Shown: piece by piece, positions 9,614-59,302 of the stretch
Layout of the letters: every line of letters begins with the position of its first letter
How positions within the stretch are numbered: position 1 is the stretch's first letter
DNA from: Acidobacteriota bacterium
GTDB lineage: Bacteria > Acidobacteriota > Terriglobia > Bryobacterales > Bryobacteraceae
NCBI GenBank assembly: GCA_026393985.1
Contig: JAPKZB010000081.1
Coordinates: forward strand, 98,136 to 162,135
Reading direction: 5' to 3'
Length of the DNA stretch: 64,000 nucleotides
Notes under the pieces: model-generated
The model's input: only the letters and a program-made list of their open reading frames with translations
What the model was told of the DNA's origin: nothing
The model's database searches: none
Position numbers and translations under genes: made by a program

Positions 9614-9619
9614 TACCCT
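9614..9619 (+). promoter_or_regulatory. TANNNT -10-like hexamer (TACCCT), 8 bases before ATG 9628
   Basis: TACCCT ends 8 bases before the start codon, so transcription would begin at or next to the ATG. No Shine-Dalgarno sequence fits in the gap. No clear -35 element is seen. Confidence 0.5.
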
Positions 9620-9627
9620 AAAAAGAT

Positions 9628-10077
9628 ATGAGTCAGCATGCCACGTTCGATGATGCCAACCTGATCCTTCGCTTGTACGAAATCCGGCGTGAGGAGCGGT
9701 TGCGCGAAGCCCGCCGCTGGTTCGCCCGCAACTTCGGGCCCGCCACTCTGGCCGAGTACCGCGCCATCTGCACCCCCGGCACCGACGAGGACGAGTACGT
9801 CCGCATGGTCATCAGCTACTACGAAATGGTGGCCAGCTTCATCACCAAGGGCGTCCTCAGCACCGACCTGTACTTTGCCACCGGCGGCGAACTGGGTCTG
9901 GTCTACTCCCGCCTCGAACCTGTCCTGGCCGAACTCCGCGCCGCCACCGGCCACCCCGGCATGTACAAGAACCTCGAAATCGTCGCCCGGCAGTACGGCG
10001 AATACCTCGACGCCCAGGCCCCCGGCAACTGGGAAGGGTTCAAGAAGCGCACCCGCGGCATGATCCTGGCCAAGTAG
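9628..10077 (+). CDS. Conserved hypothetical protein, helical (possibly DUF4760-like)
   Basis: 149 residues, soluble and rich in charged helices: DDANLILRLYEIRREERLR, then RRWFARNF, then a YYEMVASF segment, ending in GNWEGFKKRTRG. There is no signal peptide or membrane segment. The layout resembles small DUF4760-type proteins, a tentative assignment from pattern alone. The ATG is preceded by TACCCT at an 8-base gap, suggesting a leaderless message. The next gene starts 2 bases after its stop, so the two are translated as a pair. Function unknown. Confidence 0.75.
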   Translation: MSQHATFDDANLILRLYEIRREERLREARRWFARNFGPATLAEYRAICTPGTDEDEYVRMVISYYEMVASFITKGVLSTDLYFATGGELGLVYSRLEPVLAELRAATGHPGMYKNLEIVARQYGEYLDAQAPGNWEGFKKRTRGMILAK

Positions 10078-10079
10078 CC

Positions 10080-10349
10080 ATGCGCCGGGAACCGGATTTC
10101 TTCGGTGAGGACGAGGAGTTAGACCTCGTCTACATCGCCAAACGGCTGCTCGACGCCCAGCGACTCGAGGACAAACTCACAGCGGCCGGCGTGGAATACC
10201 TTGTCGAGCCCGACGAGTACCGGGGCGGGTTTCTGTTTCAGACCGTCCGCACGGGGGCCTTCTTCTATGTCCGCGGAGAAGAAGGGGATGCCGTGCGCGA
10301 GAAACTGGCTGCGCTGGGCTTCAAACCGCAGCCGCTGGGGGAAGGCTAA
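10080..10349 (+). CDS. Small conserved hypothetical protein
   Basis: 89 residues, acidic start (DFFGEDEELDLVYIAKRL), then a segment resembling small signal-transducer-like DUF2007 proteins: LEDKLTAAGVEYLVEPDEYRG followed by FFYVRGEEGDAVREKLAALG (given here in two short parts: AAGVEYLVEPDEY and REKLAALGF). That alpha/beta pattern is usual for ligand-binding or regulatory mini-domains. It starts 2 bases after the upstream gene and is probably translationally coupled to it. Function unknown. Confidence 0.75.
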   Translation: MRREPDFFGEDEELDLVYIAKRLLDAQRLEDKLTAAGVEYLVEPDEYRGGFLFQTVRTGAFFYVRGEEGDAVREKLAALGFKPQPLGEG

Positions 10350-10373
10350 CCCTCCCCCGCCGCCGCTTCCTCA

Positions 10374-13130
10374 CTAGGGCGCCGGCTGCACGACCACTTC
10401 GGTGGGGTTCCGCAACGGGAACGTGATCACGTTGCTCACGTAGATATCCTGCGCGATCGTCAACTGCGTGGCCGAGTTCGTCGGCAGATCCGAGTTCAGT
10501 TCGAGGTGAACCTCGTACAGGCCGATAGAACCCGGGCGCAGACCGGCGTACAGCACGTTGGCCGTCTTGCCGCCCGCCAGCGACGAGACAAACGCGGAAG
10601 GCTCGTTCAACACCGGACCGCGATACACGCCGCCGGTCAACGCCAGATCCTGCGCGAAGGTTTCCTTCAGCCGGCCCAGACCCGTGCCGAAGACGACGAT
10701 GGTCTGCCCCGGCAGCGCCGGGTTGGCTTCGGTCACCGTCGCCCCTTCCGTATTGGCGCAGCAGAGGTTTGGCGTCGTCGCGGTGAGAATCACTTGGGCC
10801 CCTTCGTTGGTCTTGGCTGAATATTTGATACCGTTTCCCGCCTCGCCGGCTGTCCGCGCCCGCAAGCGGATACGGGTAAACACGCCCGCCGCGTAGGCCT
10901 CCACCTGCTGGTCTTTGTTGATCTCCACGATCAACGCGTCGCGCACACTGGCGAGGCTGTCGGTATCCTTCACCGTATAGCTGTACTCCCGGTCTTCGAT
11001 CACAACGGTCGCGACGTCGCCGGCCTTGATTCCTCCATCGACGGAAACCGTTCCGGTCGACCGCGACGAAAAGTGCTGCACGACGCCCACGCGGGGGTCG
11101 GTGCCTTCAATCGCAAACAGTCCCGGATTTTGCGGGATAATCTGTACCGCCACCGGCATCGTGGTCACCACGCGGCCATCGCTGAAGCGCGTGCGCACAT
11201 ACGCACTCACGCTGTTGCGATCGTAGAACTCCCAGGGGAGCTGCGCGTTGATCCGGTTCGGCGATACCAGAAAGAGCGGGGCCAGCTTGCCGTCGAGGTA
11301 CAACTGCACATTGCCGAGTTCGGTCGGCAGCTTTTCGGCGCCTGCCGGGGCTGCGACCGCCACCTCGGAGAGTTTGTCGCCGAGCAGCGAGATGATCGTC
11401 CCCGGCGCCACGCGGGCCGCGTCCTGGCCGCCGGTCAGGAAGGCGCCGCCGGTGGTGAGCACAATCGTCGCATCGGTGGGCGCGGTACTCGTCGAAATCT
11501 CCACCCTGTTTCCGCCCTCGCCGCCCTCGCGCGCTGTCAACAGCAGGGTGCTGAGATCGGGGATAATGCTGGCGGTGACGTAGGGGTCCGGCTTGCTGTT
11601 AATCACCCGCACCAGATTGTTGAGCAGGGTGGTGACCGTGTCGGTCTTGGCGATCTTGTAGGTGTAGGTGTTTTTGGTACCCTCGCGAGTCACGTTGATC
11701 GTGATCTCGTCGTTCTCGCGAACGGTTCCCGACAGGCCGATCGTGCCCGTGGCAAACACGTCGAGGCTGGCCGAGTTTCGAACGGCGGTGTAGGGAATGG
11801 GTTGGTCGTGCGTCGAGAAGACCATGACGCGCCGGTTGAACGGGTCGGCGACATACAGGTTGGTGCCGTCCCAAGCGAGTGACATGGGCGTGCGCAACTG
11901 GTCGGTGGCCGCGCGCAACAGGGGATAGGCGCTATCGGAAGAGCGGTTGATCGATTCGCCCACCTGGCCCAGGATCGTATCGGCGGCCTGGCCGTTGCGG
12001 ACGGGCAACGAGTTGTAGACGAGAATGCGGTCGTTACCGCCATCGGCCACGAACAGCCTTTTGCCGTCGCTGAGCACGAAGCGGGGGAACTCGATGGTCG
12101 CGCCGCACAGCCGCGGGAAGAGGTCGGCGCCTTTGTCGTCCTTGCCGGTCGCCTTGCAGAGTTTTGGGCTGTTGTTGGCCACCGAGGAGGTCAGGTCCGG
12201 CTGGCCGAGCACGAGATCGGCGGGCCGCGTGTTCGAGGTCGGAATCGTGTTCCAGATCATGACGCGGTTGAAGCCGAGGTCGGCTACAAACACGCGCTGC
12301 CCGTCGCTGGTGACCGAAACCGGGTTCAGCAGGTTATCGGCCTTGGCGTCAATCCGGGTGACGGCCAGGTCCAGTTCGACGCGCGTCGTAAAGTCCGGCG
12401 CGCCCAGGACGACGTCGGCCGCCTGGTTGTTCCGAGTCGGGAAGTTATTCCAGATCAGCACGCGGTTATTGCTCGTATCGGCCACCATGACGCGGCTGCC
12501 CTGAATCCAGACGCCCTGCGGTCCGCGCAGGCTGCTCGCTGTCGGCGGGTTGACCACGCGACTCGTTGTAAAATTTTCCTGGCCCAGCACGAGGTCGGCC
12601 GGCTGATTGTTCTGCGTGGGGATGCTGTTCCAGATGAGAATCCGGTTGTTGTCGGTGTCCGAGACGAGCAGCCGGACGCCGTCGGTGGCGACGGCGTTGG
12701 GCTGCCGCAGCGAGGCGTTGGTGGGAATCAACTTCAGATCGTTGGCGGTGAAAGTGGCCTGACCAAGGACCACCGAAGCGGTGCCGCGGCAGGCCGGGCA
12801 TAGTTTGCCGGGAATCTGGGGCACTTCCGCGTTGATGGGCAGGGCGATGTCGCTCGCCACGTTGCGGTAGATGAGTACGCGATGGTTGAGCGGTCCGGCC
12901 CCGACGCGGTTGGCGTCCGCCACAACCAAAATGTTGTTGGCAAACGCGACTCCGCCCGCGCCGCCCAGCGTGTTCGGGTTCGGCGTATCTCCCTGCGCGG
13001 TAAAGGTTTCCTGGCCAATCACGAGCCGGGCCGCCTGACCGGTAAAGAAATCAGCGGGCACGGCGACCGAGGCGGTCGCCAGCAGAATGGCGAAAGGATT
13101 CATTCGGAAGAACTTCATCATCGAATACAC
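10374..13130 (-). CDS. Secreted NHL-repeat protein with interrupted TIGR03437 C-terminal domain
   Basis: 918 residues with a signal peptide (about residues 4-26, KFFRMNPFAILLATASVAVP). Residues about 30-440 form NHL-type beta-propeller repeats recurring as VLGQxxFT...NRVLIWNxxPTxNNQPAD. The C-terminal half is the Solibacter-type TIGR03437 domain (NSASL; VAPGTIISLLGDKLS; NRINAQLPWEF; PGQTIVVFGTGLG). It is interrupted twice by similar modules of about 95 residues: one after NSASLD containing YTYKIAKTDTVTTLLNNLV, one after VVQHFSS containing YSYTVKDTDSLASVRDALI. GTG 13130 sits 8 bases after a TATACT hexamer; ATG 13121 or 13118 are alternatives. Role unknown, probably cell-surface or extracellular. 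Confidence 0.85.
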   Translation of the reverse strand: MYSMMKFFRMNPFAILLATASVAVPADFFTGQAARLVIGQETFTAQGDTPNPNTLGGAGGVAFANNILVVADANRVGAGPLNHRVLIYRNVASDIALPINAEVPQIPGKLCPACRGTASVVLGQATFTANDLKLIPTNASLRQPNAVATDGVRLLVSDTDNNRILIWNSIPTQNNQPADLVLGQENFTTSRVVNPPTASSLRGPQGVWIQGSRVMVADTSNNRVLIWNNFPTRNNQAADVVLGAPDFTTRVELDLAVTRIDAKADNLLNPVSVTSDGQRVFVADLGFNRVMIWNTIPTSNTRPADLVLGQPDLTSSVANNSPKLCKATGKDDKGADLFPRLCGATIEFPRFVLSDGKRLFVADGGNDRILVYNSLPVRNGQAADTILGQVGESINRSSDSAYPLLRAATDQLRTPMSLAWDGTNLYVADPFNRRVMVFSTHDQPIPYTAVRNSASLDVFATGTIGLSGTVRENDEITINVTREGTKNTYTYKIAKTDTVTTLLNNLVRVINSKPDPYVTASIIPDLSTLLLTAREGGEGGNRVEISTSTAPTDATIVLTTGGAFLTGGQDAARVAPGTIISLLGDKLSEVAVAAPAGAEKLPTELGNVQLYLDGKLAPLFLVSPNRINAQLPWEFYDRNSVSAYVRTRFSDGRVVTTMPVAVQIIPQNPGLFAIEGTDPRVGVVQHFSSRSTGTVSVDGGIKAGDVATVVIEDREYSYTVKDTDSLASVRDALIVEINKDQQVEAYAAGVFTRIRLRARTAGEAGNGIKYSAKTNEGAQVILTATTPNLCCANTEGATVTEANPALPGQTIVVFGTGLGRLKETFAQDLALTGGVYRGPVLNEPSAFVSSLAGGKTANVLYAGLRPGSIGLYEVHLELNSDLPTNSATQLTIAQDIYVSNVITFPLRNPTEVVVQPAP

Positions 13131-13138
13131 AACCTGTT

Positions 13139-13144
13139 AGTATA
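13139..13144 (-). promoter_or_regulatory. TANNNT -10-like hexamer (TATACT) for the NHL/TIGR03437 gene
   Basis: On the minus strand TATACT ends 8 bases before GTG 13130. Initiation would fall at or just before the start codon. If ATG 13121 is the real start, the leader would be only about ten bases. Confidence 0.5.
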
Positions 13145-13191
13145 GCAGCGGCCGGGGGACGTATCCGCGCACGTGCCCCGTGGCTGGGAAT

Positions 13192-13824
13192 TTACCTTCC
13201 CGGGGTGATTTCACCCCAAATCACCTGGTAGACCTCGAGGCGTCCCTCGATGTTTTTGCCGGCTCGGATGAAGACCATCTGGTTCACCGGCAGGTTCTCG
13301 CGATGGGAGGCCACCCCGCCTTCGAGGAACCGCGTGTCGGGCCGCAGTAGCAGCGGCCGGGCCGGGGCCGAGCGCGTCTTGACCAACACAGAGTCGGTAG
13401 TAAACCCGGTCACCACGCCGGAAAACGTCAGGTCGCCGCGCGGAATGATGTGTTCGGTTACGCTCCGGTAGACCGGCCGCCGCGGATTCGGGGCGGGAGC
13501 GTTCGGCTCGATCAGCCGCACGGTGCGGGCGTAGCAGCGCCGGGAGCCATCGGCCTGCAGCCGTTGATCGACGAGCACCTCCACCGGGTCGGCCGGGCCG
13601 AAGGAGTTGACCGAGACGCGCACGCGCTGCGACTCAAACCAAGTCCGCTCGTCAAAGTTACAGCGCGTTTGGCGACCCGTTTCGGCGGTCAGCAGGAAGC
13701 GACCGCGCAGTCCGGTCGACTCCGGCTCGGAGAGCTTGCCCCGGACAATTCCGAGAGGTAGCTCCTCTCGGTCCTGCGCCCAAGCGGCCGTCACTATCGT
13801 GATCAGTAAGAAGACCCGGCCCAT
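13192..13824 (-). CDS. Secreted protein of unknown function
   Basis: 210 residues with a short signal peptide (MGRVFLLITIVTAAWAQ). The mature part is beta-rich, with phrases such as GIVRGKLSEPESTGLRGRF, TWFESQRVRVSV, TFSGVVTGFTTDSVLVKT and FLEGGVASHRENLPVNQMVF (shown in short parts). The pattern of repeated small beta-barrel-like segments recalls DUF5666-type periplasmic domains, but I cannot assign a family. The start lies 24 bases from the divergent gene at 13849, and TAGCAT lies 6 bases before the ATG. It is separated from the downstream NHL gene by 61 bases that include that gene's own promoter-like hexamer. Confidence 0.75.
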   Translation of the reverse strand: MGRVFLLITIVTAAWAQDREELPLGIVRGKLSEPESTGLRGRFLLTAETGRQTRCNFDERTWFESQRVRVSVNSFGPADPVEVLVDQRLQADGSRRCYARTVRLIEPNAPAPNPRRPVYRSVTEHIIPRGDLTFSGVVTGFTTDSVLVKTRSAPARPLLLRPDTRFLEGGVASHRENLPVNQMVFIRAGKNIEGRLEVYQVIWGEITPGR

Positions 13825-13830
13825 ATCCCG

Positions 13831-13840
13831 ATGCTACACT
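13831..13840. promoter_or_regulatory. Overlapping divergent TANNNT hexamers
   Basis: Minus strand: TAGCAT at 13831-13836, 6 bases before ATG 13824. Plus strand: TACACT at 13835-13840, 8 bases before TTG 13849. The two hexamers share two base pairs, so this 24-bp gap appears to hold back-to-back leaderless promoters. Confidence 0.5.
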
Positions 13841-13848
13841 GATTTTTT

Positions 13849-14931
13849 TTGCAGGATCTTAACGCTTTGCTCTCACCGGATCTCGATTCGTTCGCCCACG
13901 CCGGCGCCTGGTTTTTGCATTCGGGGATTCAGGAGGCCAATGGGGGCGTAGCCCGCTACCACCTGTCGGCGAAGGCCCAAAACCTGCCGGTCTCAACCGA
14001 AATTACCGGCTATGCTTGCAGCGCCTTCGCCTACCTCCATCGCCTGACTGGCGAGGCGGCCTACCGCGAGGCCGGCCTCCGCGCCGCGACCTTTCTAACC
14101 GATACCGCCTGGCAACCGGACCTGGGAGCCATGCCGTTTGAAGTCGGCGATCCGCTGCCGCCGGCCTACTTCTTTGACTGCGGCATTATTGTCCGCGGAC
14201 TGCTGGCCGTTTTCCGCATGACGGGCCAGAGCCGGTGGCTCGACCGCGCACGCGAGATTGGTCTGTTCATGGGCCGGGCGTTCCGGTCGAGCGGCGTCTG
14301 CCATCCGATCATTTCCCTGCCTTCGGGCGAGGCCTGGCCGTATGAGAGGCGCTGGTCGCGCGAGCCGGGCTGCTTTCAACTGAAGTCGGCGATGGCTTGG
14401 GACGATCTGGCGGCCTACTTTCCGGCCGACCCGTTTGTGGACTGGTACGAGGAGTCGCTAGCTTACTCCCTGGCGACATGGGAGACGTTTCTGCCTGGCG
14501 ATGCGGACCCGCTGCGGGTGATGGACCGGCTGCATGCGCATTGCTACTTCCTTGAAGGAATGCAGCCGCGCAAGCAGCGGCCGGAGGTCCGCGCCACGCT
14601 GGCGGCTGCCATCGAGCGGACGAGCCGCTATCTGCGGGAGATCGCGCCGCGGTTTGAGCGCAGCGACGTCTGTGCGCAGCTGCTCCGCGCCCGGCTCTAC
14701 ACGGGCGAGGTGGACGAGGCGCTGGCCGCCGACGAGGCCGAGCGCTGCCGGCGGCATCAGGTTTTCGGCTCCGAGGCGATGAACGACGGCGGGTTCTGCT
14801 TCGGCCGGCGGGACGGGCAGCCATTGCCGTTTATGAATCCGGTTTCGACCGCTTTTTGTCTGCAGGCGCTCGAGCAGTGGCGGCGGTATGCGGCGGGGGA
14901 TTTTCCCGGCGATCTCGGGGAGCTGATTTGA
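13849..14931 (+). CDS. Alpha/alpha-barrel (six-hairpin glycosidase-like) protein
   Basis: 360 residues, TTG start placed 8 bases after TACACT. The sequence is built from repeated helix pairs with aromatic and glycine turns (GYACSAFAYLHRLTGEAAY, FFDCGIIVRGLLAVFRMTG, FLEGMQPRKQRPEVRATLA), the pattern of (alpha/alpha)6 toroid enzymes such as unsaturated glucuronyl hydrolases and AGE epimerases. No secretion signal is seen. Its stop overlaps the start of the fused glycosyltransferase (TTGA), and an AGE-family epimerase lies at the far end of the same gene run. A role in processing or sensing the glycan made by the neighbours is inference; catalytic residues cannot be assigned. Confidence 0.75.
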   Translation: MQDLNALLSPDLDSFAHAGAWFLHSGIQEANGGVARYHLSAKAQNLPVSTEITGYACSAFAYLHRLTGEAAYREAGLRAATFLTDTAWQPDLGAMPFEVGDPLPPAYFFDCGIIVRGLLAVFRMTGQSRWLDRAREIGLFMGRAFRSSGVCHPIISLPSGEAWPYERRWSREPGCFQLKSAMAWDDLAAYFPADPFVDWYEESLAYSLATWETFLPGDADPLRVMDRLHAHCYFLEGMQPRKQRPEVRATLAAAIERTSRYLREIAPRFERSDVCAQLLRARLYTGEVDEALAADEAERCRRHQVFGSEAMNDGGFCFGRRDGQPLPFMNPVSTAFCLQALEQWRRYAAGDFPGDLGELI

Positions 14932-17567
14932 CGGGTCGCTGCAAGATCGCCTTCGCGGCCGGGACCGACGATCTCATCCCGACCCTGCTTGAGGAGATGG
15001 AGAAGCTGCCGGGCGACCTGCCAATCTATGTGGTTGGCGAGTTCCCGCCCCCCTCGGGCAAGTGGATTCCGTGGAACCCGGCCCGCTCGTTTGCCGAGAA
15101 CTATGAGCGGATGCTGGATGACCTCGAGGGCAACGAGGTCGTATTTGCAGGCATTCTGCTGCAGCCCAAACAGCCCTACTGGGATATCCGCTGGGCGGGG
15201 CTGCGGGCCTTTGGCCTGCGCGTGGTGTTTTTCAACGACAACCTGGACCATTTCATGATCCGGCCCCGGCAGTTGCCCGTGATGGCGCGGCACTGCTGGT
15301 GGCAGTTGAAGAACCTGATCCACTGGGAGACGCATCCGGGGGGCCTGCTCTACACCTGGGTCTGGCGGGTGTTTCATCCCTGGGCTTTTCGGCGACCGAT
15401 CTTCTACACGCTGGGCTGTTGGGCGGGGCGGCTGGCCGCGGGCCGGGCGCCGGCGCCGCGGGAGCCGGTGGCGTTGCCGCCGGGGCTCTCGGTGGTGATT
15501 CCGACGCGGAACGGCCGGGCGCTGCTCGAACGGCTGTGGCCGACGCTGGGGCTGCCGGCGGGCGCTGAGATCATCCTGGTGGATAACGGCAGCAGCGACG
15601 GGACGGCGGCGGCGTTTCCGGAGGCGAAGGTGATGGTTTCGGTCGAGCCGCTGTCGTTCGCGGCGGCCGTCAACCGGGGGATCGCGGCGGCGCGGTATTC
15701 GCATGTGTGCCTGCTCAACAACGATATGGTGCTCGAGCCCGGCTTCTTCGGGGCGCTGCGGGCGGCGTTTGACCGGGTGCCGGAGCTGTTTGCCGCGACG
15801 GCGCAGATCTTCTTCCCGGCCGGGCAGCGTCGCGAGGAGACGGGCAAGGCGATGTACGATCCGGAGGCGGTTGACCATGTGCCGCTGCGGTGCGTCGAGC
15901 CGCTGGCGGGGGAGGACTTGACGTGGGTGCTCTACGGCTCGGGCGGATGCACGCTCTACGATACGTCGAAGCTCCGGGCGCTAGGCGGGTTCAACGAGAC
16001 GATGACGCCGGCTTATGTCGAAGACCTGGATGTTGGCTACCGGGGCTGGCTACGGGGTTGGCCGTCGGTGTACGTCGGGGCGGCGCGGGTGCTGCATCTG
16101 CACCGGACGACGACGGCGAAGGTGTACTCGGCGTTTACGTTGGCCTGCGCGGTGGAGCGGAACTATCTGCGGTTTGTGCTGACGGGCACGGGGCCGCATT
16201 TCGGGGCGCTGTGGGAGCAGGCGCTGGGCCAATTGAACCATCAGGCGGCCAAGCAGGAGCCGGTGCGCAGCGCCGAGGTGGTGCTGCAAGAGGCTTGGCG
16301 CATGGCCTTGACGAAACGAAGCCAACAGGCGACCCAAGTTGATGAAAAAGAGATCCTTGCGCTGAATCAGGGGACCATTGCCGTGTTTCCCGGGGGCCGT
16401 TTTTGCGAAACGAAGCCAACGGTGCTGGTGGCGACGCCGTATCTGCCGTATCCGCTGGCGCACGGGGGAGCGGTGCGGATGTTCAACCTGATGCGGGAGG
16501 CAAGTAAGACCCACAATCAGGTGGTGCTCTCATTCGTCGATGAGTTGGCTGCGCCAGCGCCGGAGTTGCTGGCTTGGTGCGCCGAGGTGGTGCTGGTGGA
16601 GCGGCGGGGTTCGCATCTGCACACGAGTACGGAGCGGCCGGACGTGGTGGAAGATTTTGACCGGGAGGATTTCCGGGCGGCGCTGCGGTGGTCGCGGCGG
16701 AAGTGGGCGCCGGAGATTGTGCAGCTGGAGTTTACGCAGATGGCGCTGTATGCGCCGGACTGCCGGCCGGCGCGGACGGTACTGGTGGAGCACGATATCA
16801 CGCTCGATTTGTACGAGCAGCTGCTTGGGCAGAAGAGCGACTGGGAGACGCGGCGGCAGCACCGGCTGTGGGTTCGTTTTGAGCAGAAGGCCTGGGGCGA
16901 GGTGGACCGGGTGGTGGTGATGAGCGAGAAGGACCGGGAGCGGGTGGGAAGACATGGGGCGGTAGTGATCCGGAACGGGGTGGATCTTGAACGGTTTCAG
17001 CCAGTGGAGAGGGCGCCCGAGCCGCGGCGGCTGCTGTTTCTGGGTTCTTTTGCGCATCTGCCGAACCTGCTGGCGCTGGACTTTTTCCTGGCCGAGGTGT
17101 GGCCGCTGCTGGAGAATGTAACGCTGCATATTATCGCGGGCAAAAACCATGAGCGGTATTTCGAGGGCCGCGATTTCAATCGGCCCGGCATTGAGCTCGA
17201 GGGGTTTGTGGCTGATGTTCGGGGGGCTTACGGGCGGGCGGCGGTGGTGCTGGCGCCGCTGGTGGCCTCGGCCGGGACAAATATCAAGGTGATGGAGGCG
17301 ATGGCGATGCGGAAGGCGATTGTGGCGACGCCGGCCGGGATTAACGGCCTCGATCTGCGGCACGGCGAGGAGGTGCTGATTGCGCGGACGGGCGGGGAGA
17401 TGGCGGTGGCCATTGAGATGCTGCTGGCCGATGGGGAGCGGCGGGAGAGTTTGGAGCGGGGGGCGCGGCGGGCGGCCGAGGCGCATTACGGCTGGGACCG
17501 TATCGGCGAGGCGCAGGCGGCGATGTACCATACATTGAGAGAGTCTTATGTCGCAAAAACTGTCTGA
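14928..17567 (+). CDS. Bifunctional glycosyltransferase, GT2 fused to GT4, with N-terminal domain of unknown function
   Basis: 879 residues from TTG 14928, which overlaps the preceding TGA; GGGGAG lies just upstream. Residues 1 to about 180 form a domain I do not recognise ([39 protein letters not shown]). A GT-A domain follows ([40 protein letters not shown]). The C-terminal half is a GT-B, GT4-like domain ([63 protein letters not shown]). One polypeptide thus carries two transferase activities, suggesting sequential addition of two sugars to a surface glycan. There are no membrane segments. It overlaps gnd by 20 bases. Confidence 0.9.
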
Positions 17568-19050: not shown

Positions 19051-19058
19051 CCGGCGCC

Positions 19059-20171: not shown

Positions 20172-20192
20172 ACCCGGGGCGGGGGCGGGGGG

Positions 20193-21614
20193 CTAGCGGG
20201 AGAGGCTGAGCGCGTGGGCGAGGGAGTCGCGCACTGTGCGGAGGGCGTTCAGCAGCCCGGCGGTGGGACCGGGGTGGCGGCGGTCGGCATACAGAACGCC
20301 GGCGAGTTGGCCGTTGACGACGACGGGCAGGAGGGCAAAGAGGGCGGCGTCGAGGGACTGGACAAAGGGAGTTTCGCGGAAGCGGCCGTCCGAGAGCAGG
20401 TCGACGAGCAGGTCCTGCCGCAGGGACAGGGCGAGTGACAGGGGCGGGCGGTGGGGCAGTGCGATGGTGGGGGCGAACAGGGGGCGGGCCGAGGCGGCAT
20501 CGAGTCCGAGAGCGGCCGCGACGACGAGGCGGTCCTCGTTGGGGTGCCATTCGCAGAAGATGGCGCGGTCGAGCGAGTGGTCGGCCAGGGCGGCGGTGAG
20601 CGCGAGGGCGATGGCGCAGGGACCTTCGGCGGCGTGGCCGTGTTCTGTAAGCATCGCGGCCAAGTGCTCCCTGACCTGGGGGCTGGACACGCGGAGGCGG
20701 TGGGCGGGAATGCCGAGATGGCAGAGCTCCTCTTCCGCCTCCCCGATGGCGGTTTCCATGAGCGGCAACAGCTCCGGGAGGCCGAGGCCGAAGACGCCGC
20801 CGTAGGCGCGAAGCCAAAGGTCGAGGATCTTGCGCTGTTCGGCATCCTGGGCGCGCTGGAGGGCGTCGACGAAAACGTGGGCGAGTTTGGCGGCCAGGGC
20901 GACGCGGCTATCGGGGTCTTCGGCGGCGTTGGCTTTGAGCACATCGGCTTCGGCGGCGATGGCCATGTGCGGTGCGCCGTGGAGGCCGAAGCCGTGGAGA
21001 ATTGCCGCGCCGGCTTCGTCGAAGTTGAAACCGATCTGCTTGCGGCACTCGGTCTTTTTGGCCAGGAGTTTGCCCTGGCAGGCGGCGATGATGCGGGCGT
21101 AGGTCTCCGGGCGGTGGTAGGCGAAGGCGATTTCGCCGAGGTTGGCCAGCATGCCGGCGAGGTAGGCATCCTCCGAGGGGCGGCCACCGGGGGCGGAGGC
21201 CAGACGCCGGGCGACATTGGCGGCGAGTAGGGAGAGGGCGGTGAGGTCGATGGCCGAGGAGGAGTTTCCGGAGAAGTGACGGAGGAGGCGACCGCTGGTG
21301 GCGATGCGGGTTAACTCGTCGAGGCCGAGCAGGGAGGCGGCGTGGGTGACGCTGAGGATGGGGCGGCGGGAGCGGTTGTAGAGGGCCGAATTGGCGATGC
21401 GGAGCACCCGCAGGGTGAGGGCGAGGTCGCGCTCGATGGCCTGGGCGAAGTTCTGAATGGTGGCGTCTCCGTCGGCGGCGAGGGCGAGCAGGGTGCGGAC
21501 GTTTTCGGCGCAGGCCGGAAAGTCCGGATCGCTGTGGACCTGTTGCAGGAACACCGCAAGCGGGGTGATGACGCCTTTGCGGCTTTCCGACTCTACCAAT
21601 TCCTTAGGTATCAT
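20193..21614 (-). CDS. HDOD-domain signalling protein with C-terminal GAF-like region
   Basis: 473 residues from ATG 21614 (GTG 21626 in the same frame is an alternative). ATG is favoured by AAGGGGGG about 11 bases upstream. Residues about 20-215 form an HDOD domain (FAQAIERDLALTLRVLRIANS, THAASLLGLDELTRIA, SEDAYLAGMLANLGEIAF, abbreviated here), the catalytically inactive HD relative found in bacterial regulators. After a helical linker the C-terminus (about 330-470) resembles a GAF domain (LADHSLDRAIFCEWHPNEDRL; ALLPVVVNGQLAGVLYADRR). Such proteins act in motility, biofilm or nucleotide signalling. Its start lies within 7 bases of the divergent HAD gene. Confidence 0.88.
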   Translation of the reverse strand: MIPKELVESESRKGVITPLAVFLQQVHSDPDFPACAENVRTLLALAADGDATIQNFAQAIERDLALTLRVLRIANSALYNRSRRPILSVTHAASLLGLDELTRIATSGRLLRHFSGNSSSAIDLTALSLLAANVARRLASAPGGRPSEDAYLAGMLANLGEIAFAYHRPETYARIIAACQGKLLAKKTECRKQIGFNFDEAGAAILHGFGLHGAPHMAIAAEADVLKANAAEDPDSRVALAAKLAHVFVDALQRAQDAEQRKILDLWLRAYGGVFGLGLPELLPLMETAIGEAEEELCHLGIPAHRLRVSSPQVREHLAAMLTEHGHAAEGPCAIALALTAALADHSLDRAIFCEWHPNEDRLVVAAALGLDAASARPLFAPTIALPHRPPLSLALSLRQDLLVDLLSDGRFRETPFVQSLDAALFALLPVVVNGQLAGVLYADRRHPGPTAGLLNALRTVRDSLAHALSLSR

Positions 21615-21620
21615 GAAGTG

Positions 21621-22301
21621 TTGCACCCCCCTTTACTGCTCTTCGACATCGATGGCACTCTTGTGAGGCGAGCCGGTCCACTGCACCGGCAGGTTCTCGA
21701 GGAGGCGGGGGCGGCGGTGACCGGTTTGGCGGTGACGACAGCGAACATTCCGACGCAGGGGATGCTGGACGGGCAGATTCTGACGTTGATGCTGCGGGAG
21801 GCGGGGATGTCGCTGGCGGCGATCCGGCGGGCGCTGCCGGCGATGATGGAGATGGCGCAGGACCTTTACGTGGCGCGTTGTCCGGATTTACGGAAGAGGG
21901 TGTGTCCGGGGGCGCGCAGCGTGCTGCACCGGCTGGCGCGCAAGCGGGTGCGGACGGGATTGGTGACCGGCAATTTGTCGCGCATTGGCTGGAAAAAGAT
22001 GGAATGCGCCGGATTGCGGCACTACCTGCATTTTGGCGCCTTCGCCGAGCAGGGCGACGAGCGGCGGAAGCTGGTGGGGCAGGCGCTGCGCGAGGCGCGG
22101 CGGGCGGGATGGATTACCCGCCACTCGATGGTGGCGTTGGTGGGTGACCATGAGAACGATATTCTGGCGGCGCAGGCCAATGGAATTCCGGTAGTTTCGG
22201 TGGCGACGGGGGTTTCGTCGTCGGCGGACCTGGCCAAGCTGAATCCGGATTATCTGATTGAAGACCTGCGCAGCTTTCCCTGGCAGGAGTTATCGCTTTG
22301 A
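21621..22301 (+). CDS. HAD-superfamily hydrolase (phosphoglycolate phosphatase-like)
   Basis: About 226 residues. The nucleophile motif DIDGTL (Asp9, Asp11) is followed by a helical cap, then motif II TGLVTGN, a Lys around GWKKME, and motif IV ALVGDHENDILAA. Family members dephosphorylate small phosphate esters such as phosphoglycolate or nucleotides. TTG 21621 is chosen because TATCAT (21609-21614) ends 6 bases before it; GTG 21618 is one codon further upstream. The 5' end abuts the divergent HDOD gene, and its TGA overlaps the TTG of the methyltransferase that follows. Confidence 0.85.
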   Translation: MHPPLLLFDIDGTLVRRAGPLHRQVLEEAGAAVTGLAVTTANIPTQGMLDGQILTLMLREAGMSLAAIRRALPAMMEMAQDLYVARCPDLRKRVCPGARSVLHRLARKRVRTGLVTGNLSRIGWKKMECAGLRHYLHFGAFAEQGDERRKLVGQALREARRAGWITRHSMVALVGDHENDILAAQANGIPVVSVATGVSSSADLAKLNPDYLIEDLRSFPWQELSL

Positions 22302-23725: not shown

Positions 23726-24190
23726 CCGGGAGCCGGTGTGCTGATCGACCAGTTCGAGGGTTCCGGACTGGGGGTAGTAGAGGGCGAGGCAGTTGGCGTT
23801 GAGAAGGACAGCCATGAGCTTGCCCATGAGGAAATAGGCTTCGTCGTCGGCGGGGCCGCTCTGCAGGTCGATGGACCACCAGCCGCGGTGGCGGCGGACG
23901 GCGGCGCCGGTTTCCGTGGAGGTCACTTTAGCGGCGAGGTCTTCGACGAACATGCCGCGGACGGCCTGGAGGACAAACGTCCGGGGACCGATGGTGAGGC
24001 GGGCGCCAGTGGCGGCAAAGGCACCTTCTCCCCAGGCGCGGGTGGCGGCGTGGGTGATGGTGGCGGGGGGAAGTTCGCGGAAATCCTGGAGGAGGAAGAC
24101 GATGGAGACGAGCGGGTCGCCGGGGGCGAACGCGAAAAGACCCTTAATCCAGGAAGCAAGACCCACGCCGTGATTATAGAATAATGCCAT
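23708..24190 (-). CDS. Hypothetical protein, possibly DUF4261-like
   Basis: 160 residues with no signal peptide. It begins MALFYNHGVGLASWIKGLF, contains SIVFLLQDFRELPPATITHAATRAWGE (quoted in part: SIVFLLQDFREL), RHRGWWSIDLQSGPADDEAY and ends with LALYYPQSGTLELVD. The pattern of a beta-alpha start followed by an xAWG helix recalls small DUF4261-like proteins, without certainty. It overlaps the methyltransferase gene tail to tail by 18 bases, and its start codon shares the sequence CATG with the start of the divergent DUF1553 gene. Nothing in it shows an enzymatic motif. Confidence 0.65.
   Translation of the reverse strand: MALFYNHGVGLASWIKGLFAFAPGDPLVSIVFLLQDFRELPPATITHAATRAWGEGAFAATGARLTIGPRTFVLQAVRGMFVEDLAAKVTSTETGAAVRRHRGWWSIDLQSGPADDEAYFLMGKLMAVLLNANCLALYYPQSGTLELVDQHTGSRLVAGD
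24177..24182 (+). promoter_or_regulatory. TANNNT -10-like hexamer (TAGAAT), 6 bases before ATG 24189
   Basis: TAGAAT lies inside the AT-rich stretch 24173-24185 and ends 6 bases before the start of the DUF1553 gene. The hexamer falls within the first codons of the divergent gene, so the promoter overlaps coding DNA. Confidence 0.45.
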
Positions 24191-26351: not shown

Positions 26352-27660
26352 GCGGCAGTTTTTGGCGATGGCGCTGGGGGCGCCGCACTTCGCGCCGAAG
26401 GCGAAGTCGGTGATTTTTCTCTTCATGGACGGGGGGCCGTCGCAGATGGACACCTTCGACCCGAAGCCGCGGCTGAACGCCGAGGACGGCAAGCCGCTGC
26501 CGTTCCGGCCGCCGACGACGGTGTTCAACATTTCGGATAAGATTCTGGGGTCGCCTTTTTCTTTCCGGCGCTACGGACAGTCGGGGACGCCGGTGAGTGA
26601 GCTGTTTCCGGAGACGGCGCAGTGCGTGGATGACCTGTGCGTGATACGGAGCATGGTGGCGGACCACTCCGAGCATACGGCGGCGAACTATTTCATCCAC
26701 TCGGGCAGCGGCTTTCAGGGGCGGCCGAGCATGGGGGCGTGGGTGAACTATGGCCTGGGGAGCGAGAGCAAGAATTTGCCGGGCTACGTGGTGCTGGAGG
26801 CCGGGCTGATTCCGCCGGGCGGGTTGGACTGCTTTGGCGCGGGGTTTCTGCCGGCGAGCTACCAGGGGACGCTGTTCAAGCGCGGGGCGACGCCGATTGC
26901 CGATCTGGAGCCGCCGGCGGCCGAGCGGCCGAAGCAGAAAGACAAGCTGGCGCTGCTGGCGCAGTTGAACCGGGGCTACGGGGGGTCGAGCGAAGTGGAG
27001 GCGTTCATCAAGAACTATGAGCTGGCGTTCCGGATGCAGGCGGCGGTGCCGGAGTTGCTCGACTTGACGGGGGAGAGCGAGGCGACGCGGAAGCTGTACG
27101 GGATGGACGAGGAGATGACGGCCGAGTTTGGGCGGGAGTGTCTGCTGGCGCGTCGGCTGGTGGAGAAGGGCGTGCGGTTTGTGGAGCTGCTGACGCCGGC
27201 GCGGCCGGGGCTGGACCGGTGGGATCAGCACAGCGGGATTGAGAACGGCCATCGGATCAACGCGCGGAGCGTGGACAAGCCGATTGCGGGGCTGCTGCGG
27301 GATTTGAAGGGCCGGGGGCTGTTGAAAGATACGCTGGTGATTTGGGGGGGCGAGTTCGGGCGAACGCCGTGCGCGCAGATACCGGATAACGGGGACCGGA
27401 GCCGGGTGGGACGGGATCATAATCCGTATGGGTTTACGATGTGGATGGCGGGGGGCGGGGTGAAGGGCGGGATGGTGTACGGGGCGACGGATGAGTATGG
27501 GTACTTCGCGGTGGAGAACAAGGTGCATGTGCACGATCTGCATGCGACGATGCTGCACCTGCTGGGGCTGGACCATAAGCGGCTGACGTATCGCTACTCG
27601 GGGCGCGATATGCGCTTGACCGATGTACACGGGAACGTGGTGAAGGAGATTCTCGGGTAA
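26341..27660 (+). CDS. DUF1501 protein with Tat-type signal
   Basis: 439 residues from ATG 26341; the longer frame back to 26125 is only the unused overlap with the DUF1553 gene. The N-terminus NRRQFLAMALG is a twin-arginine signal. The body has the alkaline-phosphatase/sulfatase-like signature IFLFMDGGPSQMDTFDPKP, WGGEFGRTPCAQ, GRDHNPYGFTMWMAGGGVKGG (split here) and HDLHATMLHLLGLDH with metal-ligand-like Asp and His residues. DUF1501 proteins are thought to be exported hydrolases of unknown substrate and form a fixed pair with the upstream DUF1553 protein. The ychF gene begins 12 bases downstream. Confidence 0.9.
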   Translation: MFNRRQFLAMALGAPHFAPKAKSVIFLFMDGGPSQMDTFDPKPRLNAEDGKPLPFRPPTTVFNISDKILGSPFSFRRYGQSGTPVSELFPETAQCVDDLCVIRSMVADHSEHTAANYFIHSGSGFQGRPSMGAWVNYGLGSESKNLPGYVVLEAGLIPPGGLDCFGAGFLPASYQGTLFKRGATPIADLEPPAAERPKQKDKLALLAQLNRGYGGSSEVEAFIKNYELAFRMQAAVPELLDLTGESEATRKLYGMDEEMTAEFGRECLLARRLVEKGVRFVELLTPARPGLDRWDQHSGIENGHRINARSVDKPIAGLLRDLKGRGLLKDTLVIWGGEFGRTPCAQIPDNGDRSRVGRDHNPYGFTMWMAGGGVKGGMVYGATDEYGYFAVENKVHVHDLHATMLHLLGLDHKRLTYRYSGRDMRLTDVHGNVVKEILG

Positions 27661-27672
27661 ACTAAGAGGTTC

Positions 27673-30776: not shown

Positions 30777-30782
30777 TACCAT
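30777..30782 (+). promoter_or_regulatory. TANNNT -10-like hexamer (TACCAT), 8 bases before ATG 30791
   Basis: TACCAT ends 8 bases before the start of the DUF192 lipoprotein gene. The divergent mqnP start is at 30769, and its own TAAAAT-like element (minus strand 30781-30786) overlaps, so the 21-bp gap would serve both directions. Confidence 0.45.
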
Positions 30783-33350: not shown

Positions 33351-33356
33351 TATAAT
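33351..33356 (+). promoter_or_regulatory. Perfect -10 hexamer TATAAT, 6 bases before TTG 33363
   Basis: TATAAT is followed by ATACCA and then TTG, so transcription would begin at the first codon of the GT2 gene. This is the clearest consensus -10 in the window and supports the TTG start. The same AT-rich block may also serve the divergent rodZ-like gene. Confidence 0.6.
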
Positions 33357-36459: not shown

Positions 36460-36488
36460 TTGTTCCGGGGCGGTTGAGGCACTAGAGT
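36460..36488 (+). promoter_or_regulatory. Putative promoter TTGTTC-17-TAGAGT of the sigma factor gene
   Basis: TTGTTC (36460-36465) and TAGAGT (36483-36488) are 17 bases apart; TAGAGT ends 7 bases before ATG 36496. It is one of the few TANNNT sites here with a plausible -35 element. Confidence 0.45.
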
Positions 36489-37988: not shown

Positions 37989-37994
37989 ACTGTA
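37989..37994 (-). promoter_or_regulatory. TANNNT -10-like hexamer (TACAGT), 6 bases before msrP ATG
   Basis: Minus-strand TACAGT ends 6 bases before ATG 37982. No ribosome binding site fits in the gap. This decides in favour of the ATG over the upstream in-frame TTG. Confidence 0.5.
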
Positions 37995-39430: not shown

Positions 39431-39436
39431 AGTCTA
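39431..39436 (-). promoter_or_regulatory. TANNNT -10-like hexamer (TAGACT), 8 bases before ATG 39422
   Basis: Minus-strand TAGACT ends 8 bases before the S66 peptidase ATG. The gap (ACTGG-containing) has no ribosome binding site. Confidence 0.5.
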
Positions 39437-42095: not shown

Positions 42096-42102
42096 TATTA
42101 TG
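42096..42102. promoter_or_regulatory. Overlapping divergent -10-like hexamers between glgB and the deaminase
   Basis: Plus strand TATTAT at 42096-42101 ends 7 bases before GTG 42109. Minus strand CATAAT at 42097-42102 ends 6 bases before glgB ATG 42090. The two elements coincide except for one base, so a single AT-rich hexamer may drive both directions. Confidence 0.5.
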
Positions 42103-42996: not shown

Positions 42997-43892
42997 ATCG
43001 CCGTTTTTTCTTCGTGCGAGCTGTAGTAACTAATCCACAGCTCGCCCTTTTCCCACACGAGGCCCGCGTAGCTGGAATCGCCGCTCGAGGGCAGCTTTTC
43101 AAGCTCCGTCAGCTTGCCGGTGGCGGGGTCGATTTCGACGATCGCCGTGCGCTGCTTGCCATCATAAAGACGCACCACGCCGATCACGCGGCCGCCTGGA
43201 ATCTGCAGCATGTGCGGCCCGCCGATGCGGGCGCCCATGTCCTGCCAGGTCCATTCTTTGTAGGGTGGGCGGCTGGTTCCCCACTGGCCGGTCATGGTGC
43301 CGCGGTCGCGGCGGAGCATCATGCGGGCCGTACCATTTTTTTCAAAAATCAGGGAGCTTTCGTTCGGGTAGCCTTCGGCGAACAGGCGGGGCACCCAGGT
43401 TTCAAACGTTCGTCCATCGGCGCTGCGGTAGAGCCGGGTAAAGTCGGTATCCCGGCTGGTGGTGCCGTAGCCGACACTGTAAGCGAGACCCTTGTGCCAC
43501 TGCACGCGCCACAGCCAGAAGTTCAGTTCGCCAGCCTTGACCGGCTCGCTCCACTGCCGGGCATCGCGCGAGAACCAGACCATCGACTGGTGGGAAACGG
43601 GCTCTTTGGGCCGGTCGGCGGCCGCGGTGGTGAGCATCAATTCGCCGCGCGGGGTGACCGTGAGCTTGGGGTCGCGCAGGTCGAGGGCGGGCAGGCTGAT
43701 ACGGGCGGCGGAGGTCCAGGTCTTACCGTCGCGGCTGGTAATCACGCGGATGGCGCCGTCCGGCGAGACATGCCGGGCGGCCTCGCGGAAGGCGCAGACC
43801 CACTCCCCGTGGTAGCGGATCAGGTCTGTGAAAGCGTTGTGCGGGGCGGCGTCCCAAATCCGCGTCACCATCAGCAGGCTAGCCAGTATCAT
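42972..43892 (-). CDS. Sialidase-like beta-propeller protein
   Basis: 306 residues. Repeated Asp-box-like turns (SRDGKTWTSA, SRDARQWSEPV, SADGRTFETWV) and an overall six-blade pattern match exo-sialidase/neuraminidase superfamily propellers. Arginines are spaced as in the family (VQWHKGLAYSVGYG, GPHMLQIPGGRVIGV). The start MILASLLMVTRIW could act as a short, weak signal peptide. Many family members in soil bacteria are not sialidases, so the substrate is open. It lies between the deaminase (overlapping tails) and the Nudix gene (starts 7 bases apart). Confidence 0.75.
   Translation of the reverse strand: MILASLLMVTRIWDAAPHNAFTDLIRYHGEWVCAFREAARHVSPDGAIRVITSRDGKTWTSAARISLPALDLRDPKLTVTPRGELMLTTAAADRPKEPVSHQSMVWFSRDARQWSEPVKAGELNFWLWRVQWHKGLAYSVGYGTTSRDTDFTRLYRSADGRTFETWVPRLFAEGYPNESSLIFEKNGTARMMLRRDRGTMTGQWGTSRPPYKEWTWQDMGARIGGPHMLQIPGGRVIGVVRLYDGKQRTAIVEIDPATGKLTELEKLPSSGDSSYAGLVWEKGELWISYYSSHEEKTAIYLARWKP
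43887..43892 (+). promoter_or_regulatory. TANNNT -10-like hexamer (TATCAT), 6 bases before GTG 43899
   Basis: TATCAT overlaps the start codon of the divergent sialidase-like gene and ends 6 bases before the Nudix GTG. Identical hexamer and gap occur before the HAD gene at 21609. Confidence 0.45.
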
Positions 43893-43898
43893 AAACGT

Positions 43899-45090: not shown

Positions 45091-45096
45091 TATATT
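45091..45096 (+). promoter_or_regulatory. TANNNT -10-like hexamer (TATATT), 6 bases before nuoA ATG
   Basis: TATATT is followed by GGGTCT and ATG 45103. The spacing places transcription initiation at the start codon. Confidence 0.5.
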
Positions 45097-57042: not shown

Positions 57043-57048
57043 GGGGAG

Positions 57049-59289
57049 TTACTCTCGGGTCATGAACTCGTCAAGGTTCAGCAGGACGCGGGAGACGCCG
57101 GTCCAAAGCTGGGTTTCGCCGGCCGCGGGTTGGGAGTCCCGCTGCTGGCGGATAAAGCGGAGCAGGCGCTCGGTCTCGCGGGGGCGCGGGGTGCGTTGCA
57201 CGGCGAGTTCGAAGCCGTGACGGAGGCGGGCGCCCTCTTCGGCGGGCGCTTCCTTCAAAATGCGTTGGGCCAACGATGAAGCAAACTCAAAGCTTGCCTC
57301 ATCGTTGAGCAGGGTAAGCGCCTGGAGCGGAGAGTTCGAGCGGATGCGGCGCGTGCAGGAGGTGATGCCGTCAGCGGCGTCAAACACCGTCAGGCTTGGG
57401 TGCGCTGCACTGCGCTGGAAGAAGGTGTACATGCCGCGGCGGTAGCGTTCGGGGCCCGTCGCGGTCTTCCACTCGCGGACAACCTGGGTCACGTTCAAAG
57501 CGCCGGCGGGAATCGGCGGGAAGAAACTCGGGCCGCCGATCTGCTGGGTCAAAAGGCCGCTGCTGACGAGCGCCGAGTCGCGGAGGATCTCGGCGTCGAG
57601 ACGCAGCCGGTTCTGCCGCGCGAGGAGCTTGTTCTCCGGGTCGACGGCCGCGGCGTCCGGACGCGGCAGCGAGGCCTGCTGGTAGGTGTCGCTGGTCACA
57701 ATCAGCTTATGTAAAGCCTTCTGGCTCCAGCCGCTCTCCATGAAAGAGGCAGCCAGATAGTCCAGTAACTCTGGGTGCGTAGGCCGGTCGCCCACCACGC
57801 CAAAGTCGCTCTCCGTATCGACGATGCCCCGCCCGAAATACTTCTGCCAGACTCGGTTTACCGTCACCCGTGGAGTTAAAGGGTTATCCTTGGCCACCAG
57901 CCACTTGGCGAAGTCGAGACGGTTGGCCCGGGCCGGCATGGGCGGCAGGAAGGAGATGCCACCCGGCTCGACGGGGCTGCCCTTCCGGGTGAAGTCCCCT
58001 CCCAGATGGATGTACGATGGCCGCGGCGTGGGCCGCTCCTTCATGATCAGGGTGCGCAACAGGTTGGGCTTCTGCTTGCGAAGGTCGGCGAGCTCCTTGC
58101 GCAGCGCAATAAGCGTCGGATCCTTGTCCGCGTTTTCGGTAAGCGTCTCCTGGTGCTTGCGGATCTTGAGCTCAAGCAGTTGGAAGTCAGCGTCCCATTT
58201 CACTTGGCGGGCCTTCTCCTCGTCGCTGCCAATTTCAAGGAAGGGACGGTTAAAGTACTTGCGATCCTCTTCCTTGTCGATCTCATCCACGCCATTCCAG
58301 AAAGAAAAGATCTGATAAAACTCCCGCTGCGTGATCGGGTCGTATTTATGATCGTGACAGCGGGCGCAAGCCAGCGTCAGGCCGAGAAACGCCGATCCGG
58401 TGGTGGCGACCCGGTCGGCCACCGCCTCTACACGATACTGCTCAAAATCAATGCCGCCTTCATAATTGGACGGGGTGTTCCGGTGGAAGCCGGTAGCGAT
58501 CACCTGATCGGTGGTCGGGTTGGGGAGTAAGTCGCCGGCAATCTGTTCGACTACGAACTGATCGAACGGCATATCCTTATTAATCGCTTTGAGGACCCAT
58601 TCGCGGTAGGGCCAGATGTCGCGGGGGGCGTCAATTGTGTAGCCGTCGGTATCCGAGTAGCGGGCCACGTCGAGCCAATGGCGGCCCCAGCGTTCGCCGT
58701 AGGCGGGCGAGGCAAGCAGTCGATCCACCACCTTGACATAGGCGTTCGGCGACTCATCTTTAAGGAACGCTTCGACCTCGTTCGGGGTGGGTGGCAGCCC
58801 AGTCAGATCGAGGTGCACGCGGCGCAACAGAGTCCGCTTGTCGGCGCGGGGCGACAGTGCCAGCCCCTTCTCCTGTAGCTTGGCGAGGACAAATGTGTCG
58901 ATGGTGGCGCCGGCCGGTTTCGGCCGGACCGGTTGGAACGCCCAGTGCTTGCTCGTCCGGCGCTTGGCCTGCAAAAAGGAAGCCGGCGCGGGCATACCGT
59001 CCTGCACCCATTTTTCGAGCACGGCAATCTCAGCATCGGAGAGCTTTTTGCCGCCCTTGGGCATCTTGAGATCGCCTGCGTGTTTTACCGCGGCAATGAG
59101 GATCGGCGCCGCCGGCCCGCGATTGCCGCCCTTCAGAATGGCTTCTTTGGAGTCAAGCGCCAAGCCACCGTTCACGGAGTTGACGTTGTGGCAGCCCGAG
59201 CAATTCTTCTTAAGAATGGCCAGAGCCTCCGCTCCGTCCTGCGCCATTAGCGGTATCGCTGCAAGGAAGAGGAAACTGATTCGAAGCAT
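57049..59289 (-). CDS. PSD1-type protein: cytochrome-like domain, DUF1549 and DUF1553
   Basis: 746 residues from ATG 59289; further upstream codons overlap the divergent gene. A signal peptide (MLRISFLFLAAIPLMAQ) is followed by a planctomycete-type cytochrome domain with haem motif CSGCH (Cys30 to His34) and methionines in LKMPKGGKKL. DUF1549 (VHLDLTGLPPTPNEVEAFL, YGERWGRHWLDVARYSD) with CARCHDHKYDP and DUF1553 (DFGVVGDRPTHPELLDYLA, SNSPLQALTLLNDEASFE) follow. Function unknown; probably exported and redox-linked. TAAGAT lies 7 bases before the ATG. Confidence 0.93.
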   Translation of the reverse strand: MLRISFLFLAAIPLMAQDGAEALAILKKNCSGCHNVNSVNGGLALDSKEAILKGGNRGPAAPILIAAVKHAGDLKMPKGGKKLSDAEIAVLEKWVQDGMPAPASFLQAKRRTSKHWAFQPVRPKPAGATIDTFVLAKLQEKGLALSPRADKRTLLRRVHLDLTGLPPTPNEVEAFLKDESPNAYVKVVDRLLASPAYGERWGRHWLDVARYSDTDGYTIDAPRDIWPYREWVLKAINKDMPFDQFVVEQIAGDLLPNPTTDQVIATGFHRNTPSNYEGGIDFEQYRVEAVADRVATTGSAFLGLTLACARCHDHKYDPITQREFYQIFSFWNGVDEIDKEEDRKYFNRPFLEIGSDEEKARQVKWDADFQLLELKIRKHQETLTENADKDPTLIALRKELADLRKQKPNLLRTLIMKERPTPRPSYIHLGGDFTRKGSPVEPGGISFLPPMPARANRLDFAKWLVAKDNPLTPRVTVNRVWQKYFGRGIVDTESDFGVVGDRPTHPELLDYLAASFMESGWSQKALHKLIVTSDTYQQASLPRPDAAAVDPENKLLARQNRLRLDAEILRDSALVSSGLLTQQIGGPSFFPPIPAGALNVTQVVREWKTATGPERYRRGMYTFFQRSAAHPSLTVFDAADGITSCTRRIRSNSPLQALTLLNDEASFEFASSLAQRILKEAPAEEGARLRHGFELAVQRTPRPRETERLLRFIRQQRDSQPAAGETQLWTGVSRVLLNLDEFMTRE

Positions 59290-59295
59290 TGTGGG

Positions 59296-59302
59296 TATCT
59301 TA
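59296..59302. promoter_or_regulatory. Overlapping divergent TANNNT hexamers between PSD1 and monooxygenase genes
   Basis: Plus strand TATCTT at 59296-59301 ends 8 bases before ATG 59310. Minus strand TAAGAT at 59297-59302 ends 7 bases before ATG 59289. The two share five base pairs, so one 7-bp site could serve both directions. Confidence 0.55.

Follow-up and report, generated by a model that had tools for sequence, protein, structure and literature searches.

The closest described counterpart of the promoters considered here is found in the survey of Zheng et al. 2011 (PMC3160421), which interprets a TANNNT hexamer about 12 bases ahead of a start codon as the -10 box of a sigma-70 promoter of leaderless mRNA, and lists such TA-led genes in all three of the Acidobacteria genomes covered, with a mean of 13.3% and a range of 9.7–19.4% of genes. 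In Deinococcus-Thermus, according to a further study (PMC12340547), a motif about 6–7 bp from the open reading frame (ORF) of Deinococcus radiodurans works as the -10 region of leaderless genes; this motif has been tested by mutation and with reporters and concerns nearly a third of D. radiodurans genes. The present analysis deals with a window of 64,000 nucleotides (contig JAPKZB010000081.1, positions 98,136 to 162,135 of the forward strand) from the genome of an Acidobacteriota bacterium (GCA_026393985.1; 96 contigs, 5.93 Mb), in which a preliminary description had noted 17 TANNNT hexamers shortly before start codons and taken them as signs of leaderless transcription. All 17 are present at the noted gaps, a gap being the bases that separate hexamer from start codon, and a strand has been assigned to each. 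The same description had regarded leaderless genes as undescribed for the group, a view contradicted by the three genomes of Zheng et al.; TANNNT leaderless promoters are a known kind, already predicted for Acidobacteria.

As in the TA-led genes of Zheng et al. (PMC3160421), TANNNT in this genome exceeds background at gaps 6–8 and the Shine-Dalgarno (SD) signal is depleted, and the estimated share, roughly 15% of all genes, falls within their range. Whereas theirs is a whole-genome statistic, the present work tests individual promoters of one genome by their conservation among orthologues and describes divergent boxes that overlap. The Deinococcus-Thermus system, as portrayed in PMC12340547, has the same hexamer at the same distance beside an SD class of genes; it differs in that the present case is known from sequence alone and takes in a smaller share of genes, and that paper's main text contains neither the word divergent nor the word bidirectional.

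The hexamers are very probably the -10 boxes of leaderless mRNAs. The housekeeping sigma factor would read the hexamer as its -10 element, and RNA polymerase would start on the start codon or one or two bases ahead of it; lacking a leader, the mRNA could not accommodate a Shine-Dalgarno site, and ribosomes would engage the start codon at its 5' end directly. About one fifth of unit-first genes would use such an adjoining -10 box, and in a subset of divergent pairs one short AT-rich core would serve two leaderless genes. Direct ribosomal use of a 5'-terminal start codon is described for leaderless mRNAs elsewhere, and in established promoter geometry a gap of 6 places the start codon at the usual +1. 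The genome encodes an RpoD-like sigma factor of 573 amino acids, which by its motifs probably belongs to group 1. A literature search, with most subscription papers outside its reach, found no 5'-end map for Acidobacteria.

This reading draws on where the hexamer stands, on how seldom the same genes carry SD motifs, on the hexamer's concentration ahead of first genes and on controls in Deinococcus deserti and Escherichia coli. Counts were made in a sample of 1,196,965 of the 5,925,248 bases of the window's own genome, in which a home-made, dicodon-based gene finder trained on the same sample called 894 genes, its choice of start depending on coding potential and start-codon type only and ignoring upstream DNA. 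First genes (n = 476) were divergent neighbours or lay at least 60 bases behind a same-strand gene, and operon-internal genes numbered 338, units being inferred solely from spacing and strand; 80 genes with same-strand spacings of 26–59 bases were assigned to neither class, and genes were excluded if the stretch held no neighbour or fewer than 100 bases upstream of them. Against a background taken as the mean per gap across gaps 20–59, TANNNT preceded first genes 36, 19 and 18 times at gaps 6, 7 and 8 (5.38 expected per gap), which sums to 73 against 16.1 expected (Poisson P 4e-25) and amounts to the sharp genome-wide peak on which the preliminary description had made its reading depend; gap 9, which the preliminary description had included, shows no excess in this genome (5 against 5.38 among the 476 first genes). 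Operon-internal genes gave 9, 7 and 2 at the three gaps (1.15 per gap), the 80 genes of intermediate spacing 7, 1 and 3, and no such peak precedes the 18,206 in-frame start codons inside genes. Moreover, a de novo scan of 12,800 combinations (three letters in six positions, 20 gaps) ranked TA---T at gap 6 first (36 against 5.3), the runners-up being mostly slices of the same motif.

When in-frame alternative starts were admitted within a range reaching 150 bases upstream and 60 bases downstream from the start called by the finder, with shifted gaps as control, a box at gaps 6–8 was found in 148 of the 476 first genes against 56.0, and in 28 of the 338 internal genes against 11.5. By these counts, TA-led genes make up about 22% of the first and 5% of the internal class, or roughly 15% of all genes when the two are combined; they are mainly the first genes of units. 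The hexamer does stand before unit-first genes, as had been proposed, but not as a general rule, and leaderless transcription, while still the best explanation of a peak accompanied by SD depletion, would apply to about one fifth of first genes, a smaller share than had been implied. Within the window, which holds 25 first genes, a box was found in 5 with the finder's own starts (0.7 in the control), in 15 with starts up to 150 bases upstream (2.1) and in 16 with starts up to 300 bases upstream (2.7); the window looks richer in TA-led first genes than the genome and offers a compact set of testable promoters.

An SD-like motif occurs in 2 of the 73 TA-led first genes; of the 403 remaining first genes 77 have one (Fisher P 1.3e-4), and of the 338 operon-internal genes 115. 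This agrees with the earlier statement that TANNNT-led genes mostly have no ribosome binding site; the gene at 45529, cited there as an SD contrast case, does carry GAGGA upstream. Start codons differ as well, with 69 ATG, 5 GTG and 4 TTG in 78 TA-led first genes (gaps 6–9) against 265, 88 and 45 in 398 other first genes. Alignment of the 73 boxes reveals an enrichment of A at position 4 and of A or C at position 5, a weak G two bases ahead of the box and a purine-rich stretch behind it; a strong extended -10 was not found among them. The same pipeline yielded a TANNNT peak in a D. deserti plasmid (9 against 0.9, a rough figure at a gene coverage of 0.51) and no peak in E. coli K-12 (2 against 4.2). 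Alternatively, the hexamer could act in translation, for instance as an AU-rich part of a longer leader that aids the ribosome, with the promoters further upstream, and the lack of a visible -35 element would suit such an arrangement. This alternative is nevertheless very improbable: the signal is a specific one, T-A---T at gap 6; it is found chiefly ahead of first genes and, in its own genome, hardly ever together with SD motifs; it is present in D. deserti but not in E. coli; and some divergent pairs read overlapping bases from both strands, which translation would not need.

Relatives were surveyed with one genome per taxonomic level and per-genome coding models, the rows of G024, G028 and G073 being rough at their low gene coverage of 0.66–0.75. 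At gaps 6–8, TANNNT is in excess in the genus-level relative G017 (14 against 2.7), an order-level relative (8 against 1.4) and a class-level relative (10 against 2.8); gap 9 is in excess in G017 (7 against 0.90) and in the family-level relative G024 (5 against 0.72). An SD-like motif accompanies 1 of 14 TA-led genes of G017 at gaps 6–8 and 19 of 85 others. Application of the own-genome coding model gave 3 against 1.7 in G024 and 5 against 0.5 in G028 at gaps 6–8, where that model called too few genes in both, and per-genome models were used instead. In G028, just 32% of C1:1-20000 was called coding, mostly as short ORFs, which is possibly a mobile or decayed region or the result of sequencing errors.

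A further alternative places the true starts downstream of the claimed ones, behind ordinary promoters with short leaders, as might be suspected from the gene finder, which put 9 of the 17 starts further downstream and missed three genes altogether, leaving 12 noted starts in dispute. Comparison of the 12 disputed intervals with relatives, to which eight same-genus genomes contribute, gave pooled substitutions of 160, 87 and 495 at codon positions 1, 2 and 3 with 23 indel bases, the intervals of 13130, 13849 and 24189 (0, 2 and 0 substitutions) being uninformative. Since these substitutions favour codon position 3, the noted starts are coding from the claimed codon on, and the first 20 codons past the claimed starts, compared with seven relatives, show 85, 38 and 252 at the three positions. 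In addition, the genome-wide peak appears with starts chosen blind to upstream DNA, and errors of placement would blur such a peak rather than create it; the downstream placement is very improbable. Coding potential alone misplaced the start of, or overlooked, 12 of these 17 genes, so that gene models in genomes of this kind may have many wrong 5' ends.

In the same comparison with seven relatives, which extends to each of the 17 sites, for many of them with one or two relatives only, the key letters of a sigma-70 -10 element, T1, A2 (the -11 A) and T6 (the -7 T), survive together in 38 of 40 orthologue comparisons; for equally spaced triplets of the flanks the figure is 779 of 1200. Both losses belong to 39422, where a deletion or gap edge was scored as loss and TTAGACT is present in both relatives in a MAFFT alignment. 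Chance matches through several allowed start codons and gaps, to which the control rate with alternative starts (about 10–12% of first genes, 47.2–57.7 of 476) and the missing excess at gap 9 in this genome lend something, have a negligible probability and are refuted for the hexamer set as a whole by 16 of 25 first genes in the window against 2.7, by 149 of 476 genome-wide against 57.7 and by the 38 of 40 comparisons, though single genes such as 27673 may be chance.

Several observations weigh against reading the hexamers as -10 elements of leaderless transcripts. Conservation is as high at the three N positions (115 of 120) as at the key bases (116 of 120), and several flanks fall within the coding sequence of a neighbour and are almost unchanged for that reason; among relatives this close, T, A and T are therefore not singled out. 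With gaps of 7–8, the transcript could retain a leader one or two bases long. A -35 hexamer about 17 bases upstream shows no clear excess over shuffles in the 73 sequences; a -35 element is not required of every sigma-70 promoter, and its lack therefore does not exclude sigma-70 membership. Among the relatives, the excess at gaps 6–8 is weak in the family-level G024 (6 against 2.1, P 0.02) and in the phylum-level G093 (7 against 2.1, P 0.007), and at gaps 6–9 no SD depletion is seen in G017 (4 of 21 TA-led genes against 16 of 78 others).

The less familiar and less expected part of these results is the divergent overlapping arrangement, in which some divergent neighbours appear to share or overlap one box. 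The original study of bidirectional promoters with a shared -10 element is reportedly that of Warman et al. in 2021. Bidirectional promoters of E. coli (PMC12825309; start spacing 18 bp, also 10 and 23 bp) and of Salmonella (PMC10268837; 18 bp) carry pseudo-symmetric -10 elements on both strands. The pairs described below resemble them in having opposite-strand -10 boxes that share bases, with start codons 19–25 bp apart, and differ in that both start codons would sit on transcription starts; neither paper contains the word leaderless. Streptomyces phoR is a leaderless gene in a divergent promoter region, with a start mapped to the A of ATG by 5' rapid amplification of cDNA ends and a -10 of TAACCT (PMC6283541); unlike the overlapping boxes here, the divergent intergenic promoters of phoR and phoU have no shared or overlapping -10 box described in the accessible part of that paper. 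For archaeal bidirectional TATA promoters, likewise, the sources as available describe no -10 shared by two leaderless genes, and a literature search that missed most subscription papers found no description of two leaderless genes sharing one -10 box.

The clearest pair lies between 59289 and 59310, where the heptamer TATCTTA can be read from both strands between two start codons: TATCTT (59296..59301, + strand) stands at gap 8 from ATG 59310, and TAAGAT (59297..59302, - strand), its other strand, at gap 7 from ATG 59289 of a PSCyt/PSD1 protein. Apart from a single base, the sequence between the starts is identical in seven same-genus relatives, and the coding sequence drifts on both sides. 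The disputed intervals have 22, 15 and 101 substitutions at codon positions 1, 2 and 3 for 59310, and 31, 1 and 34 for 59289. The 59310 protein (57049-60428 region) belongs to a large paralogous set, with 14 matches in its own genome including itself and many in relatives. The boxes of the pair 13824/13849, TAGCAT (13831..13836, - strand, gap 6 to ATG 13824) and TACACT (13835..13840, + strand, gap 8 to TTG 13849), have two bases in common. So do TATAAT (24173..24178, - strand, gap 6 to GTG 24166) and TAGAAT (24177..24182, + strand, gap 6 to ATG 24189 of a PSCyt2/PSD1 protein), GTG 24166 being a candidate alternative start of a divergent - strand ORF whose longest form starts at 24190; the 24189 flank is wholly identical in the relative G010, so the conservation of TAGAAT says little. 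The palindrome CATG at 24188-24191 could start both divergent ORFs (24190 on the - strand, 24189 on the + strand) at once.

In the fourth pair, glgB and a gene of the adenosine-deaminase family flank TATTAT (42096..42101, + strand, gap 7 to GTG 42109; disputed interval with 2, 0 and 22 substitutions) and, shifted by one base, CATAAT (42097..42102, - strand, gap 6 to ATG 42090 of glgB), which deviates from TANNNT at its first base. The deaminase gene is divergent from glgB in 70 of 80 fetched glgB loci, and ATAAT lies between them in 47 of these 70 and is missing from 23; it is the commonest 5-mer of this segment, shuffled segments giving 2.6 (at most 7). Of the 47 loci, 20 have ATAAT 6–8 bases ahead of the aligned start of glgB, and 31 have it 6–10 bases ahead. 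By eye and uncounted, TGN precedes CATAAT at glgB in many relatives. Among the best 80 relatives listed, GlgB identity is 90% for the nearest and 65–69% for the next ones; records labelled Arcobacter, Bordetella parapertussis and Nevskia, with glgB 61–65% identical and the same divergent deaminase arrangement, are probably mislabelled bins.

Boxes at gaps 6–8 on both sides were counted for the divergent pairs of the own-genome sample: 10 of 154 pairs have them at start-to-start spacings of 12–30 bases, 1 at 31–49, 1 at 50–68, 0 at 69–87 and 17 at 0–200; six shifted-gap controls gave 0, 2, 2, 1, 0 and 0 at 12–30 and 2, 2, 3, 1, 3 and 5 at 0–200. Four of the 10 close pairs lie in the window, and two of these four need alternative GTG starts (24166, 43868). 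For the strict pattern CAT-N5-8-TANNNTA-N5-8-ATG, the own sample has 7 matches (background 0.9; ATG..CAT control 1) and the relatives' sample 4 (0.7; 1), and only 3 of the 7 own matches, 59289/59310 and two more, have long coding ORFs on both sides. Its (6,7) arrangement was counted in 41 genomes, giving 87 matches against 50 for ATG..CAT and 27 for the reversed pattern; the window's genus contributes 64, 35 and 11 (19 genomes, many matches being visibly orthologous), and no clear excess is seen in six other genomes of the family (8, 7 and 3) or in 16 genomes of the order's other families (15, 8 and 13). The strict shared heptamer is rare and shows no clear enrichment beyond the genus, and it was rejected as a general feature; unlike it, the looser both-box count at spacings of 12–30 stands. 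Chances are about even that such Acidobacteriota keep a class of bidirectional leaderless promoters, in which one symmetric or overlapping -10 core of about 7–10 bases would be flanked by the start codons of two divergent genes, each codon coinciding with a transcription start, the whole control region spanning about 20 bases conserved between species and both genes competing for one RNA polymerase. Overlapping divergent pairs of this type would show how small a two-gene control region can be.

Among the other boxes of the window, TACCCT (9614..9619, + strand) lies at gap 8 from ATG 9628 of a DUF4760 protein and reads TACTCT in G010, and TATACT (13139..13144, - strand), at gap 8 from GTG 13130 of an NHL-repeat protein, is kept in G010 even though the 30-base flank is merely 57% identical. 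TACCAT (30777..30782, + strand) is found at gap 8 from ATG 30791 of a DUF192 protein, and TACAGT (37989..37994, - strand) at gap 6 from ATG 37982 of a molybdopterin-binding oxidoreductase. TATAAT (33351..33356, + strand, gap 6 to TTG 33363 of a glycosyltransferase) is kept in both G010 and G016, and its disputed interval has 25, 16 and 88 substitutions at codon positions 1, 2 and 3. The corresponding counts are 20, 10 and 38 for TAGAGT (36483..36488, + strand, gap 7 to ATG 36496 of an ECF-type sigma factor); 46, 34 and 169 for TATATT (45091..45096, + strand, gap 6 to ATG 45103 of a nuoA-type complex I chain 3); and 9, 7 and 23 with 15 indel bases for TAGACT (39431..39436, - strand, gap 8 to ATG 39422 of a peptidase S66). 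TAAACT (27658..27663, + strand, gap 9 to ATG 27673 of ychF), which had been listed as probable, is present but weak, because ychF lies 12 bases behind the upstream gene and the hexamer contains that gene's stop codon.

Two further boxes read TATCAT on the + strand, one at 21609..21614 (gap 6 to TTG 21621 of a HAD hydrolase; disputed interval with 1, 1 and 7 substitutions) and one at 43887..43892 (gap 6 to GTG 43899 of a NUDIX gene). In both divergent pairs (21609-21621 and 43887-43899), TATCAT ends in the three bases that make up the predicted start codon of the opposite gene, which for 21621 is a divergent HDOD gene; for 43899, the conservation may therefore be partly coding. As to base composition, the GC (guanine-cytosine) skew of the window changes between 1-12000 and 12000-32000, from -0.31 over the initial 4 kb to about +0.25 at 20–32 kb. 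The genes called by the finder lie on the + strand in the former part and, by length, mostly on the + strand in the latter, so that gene orientation alone seems not to explain the change.

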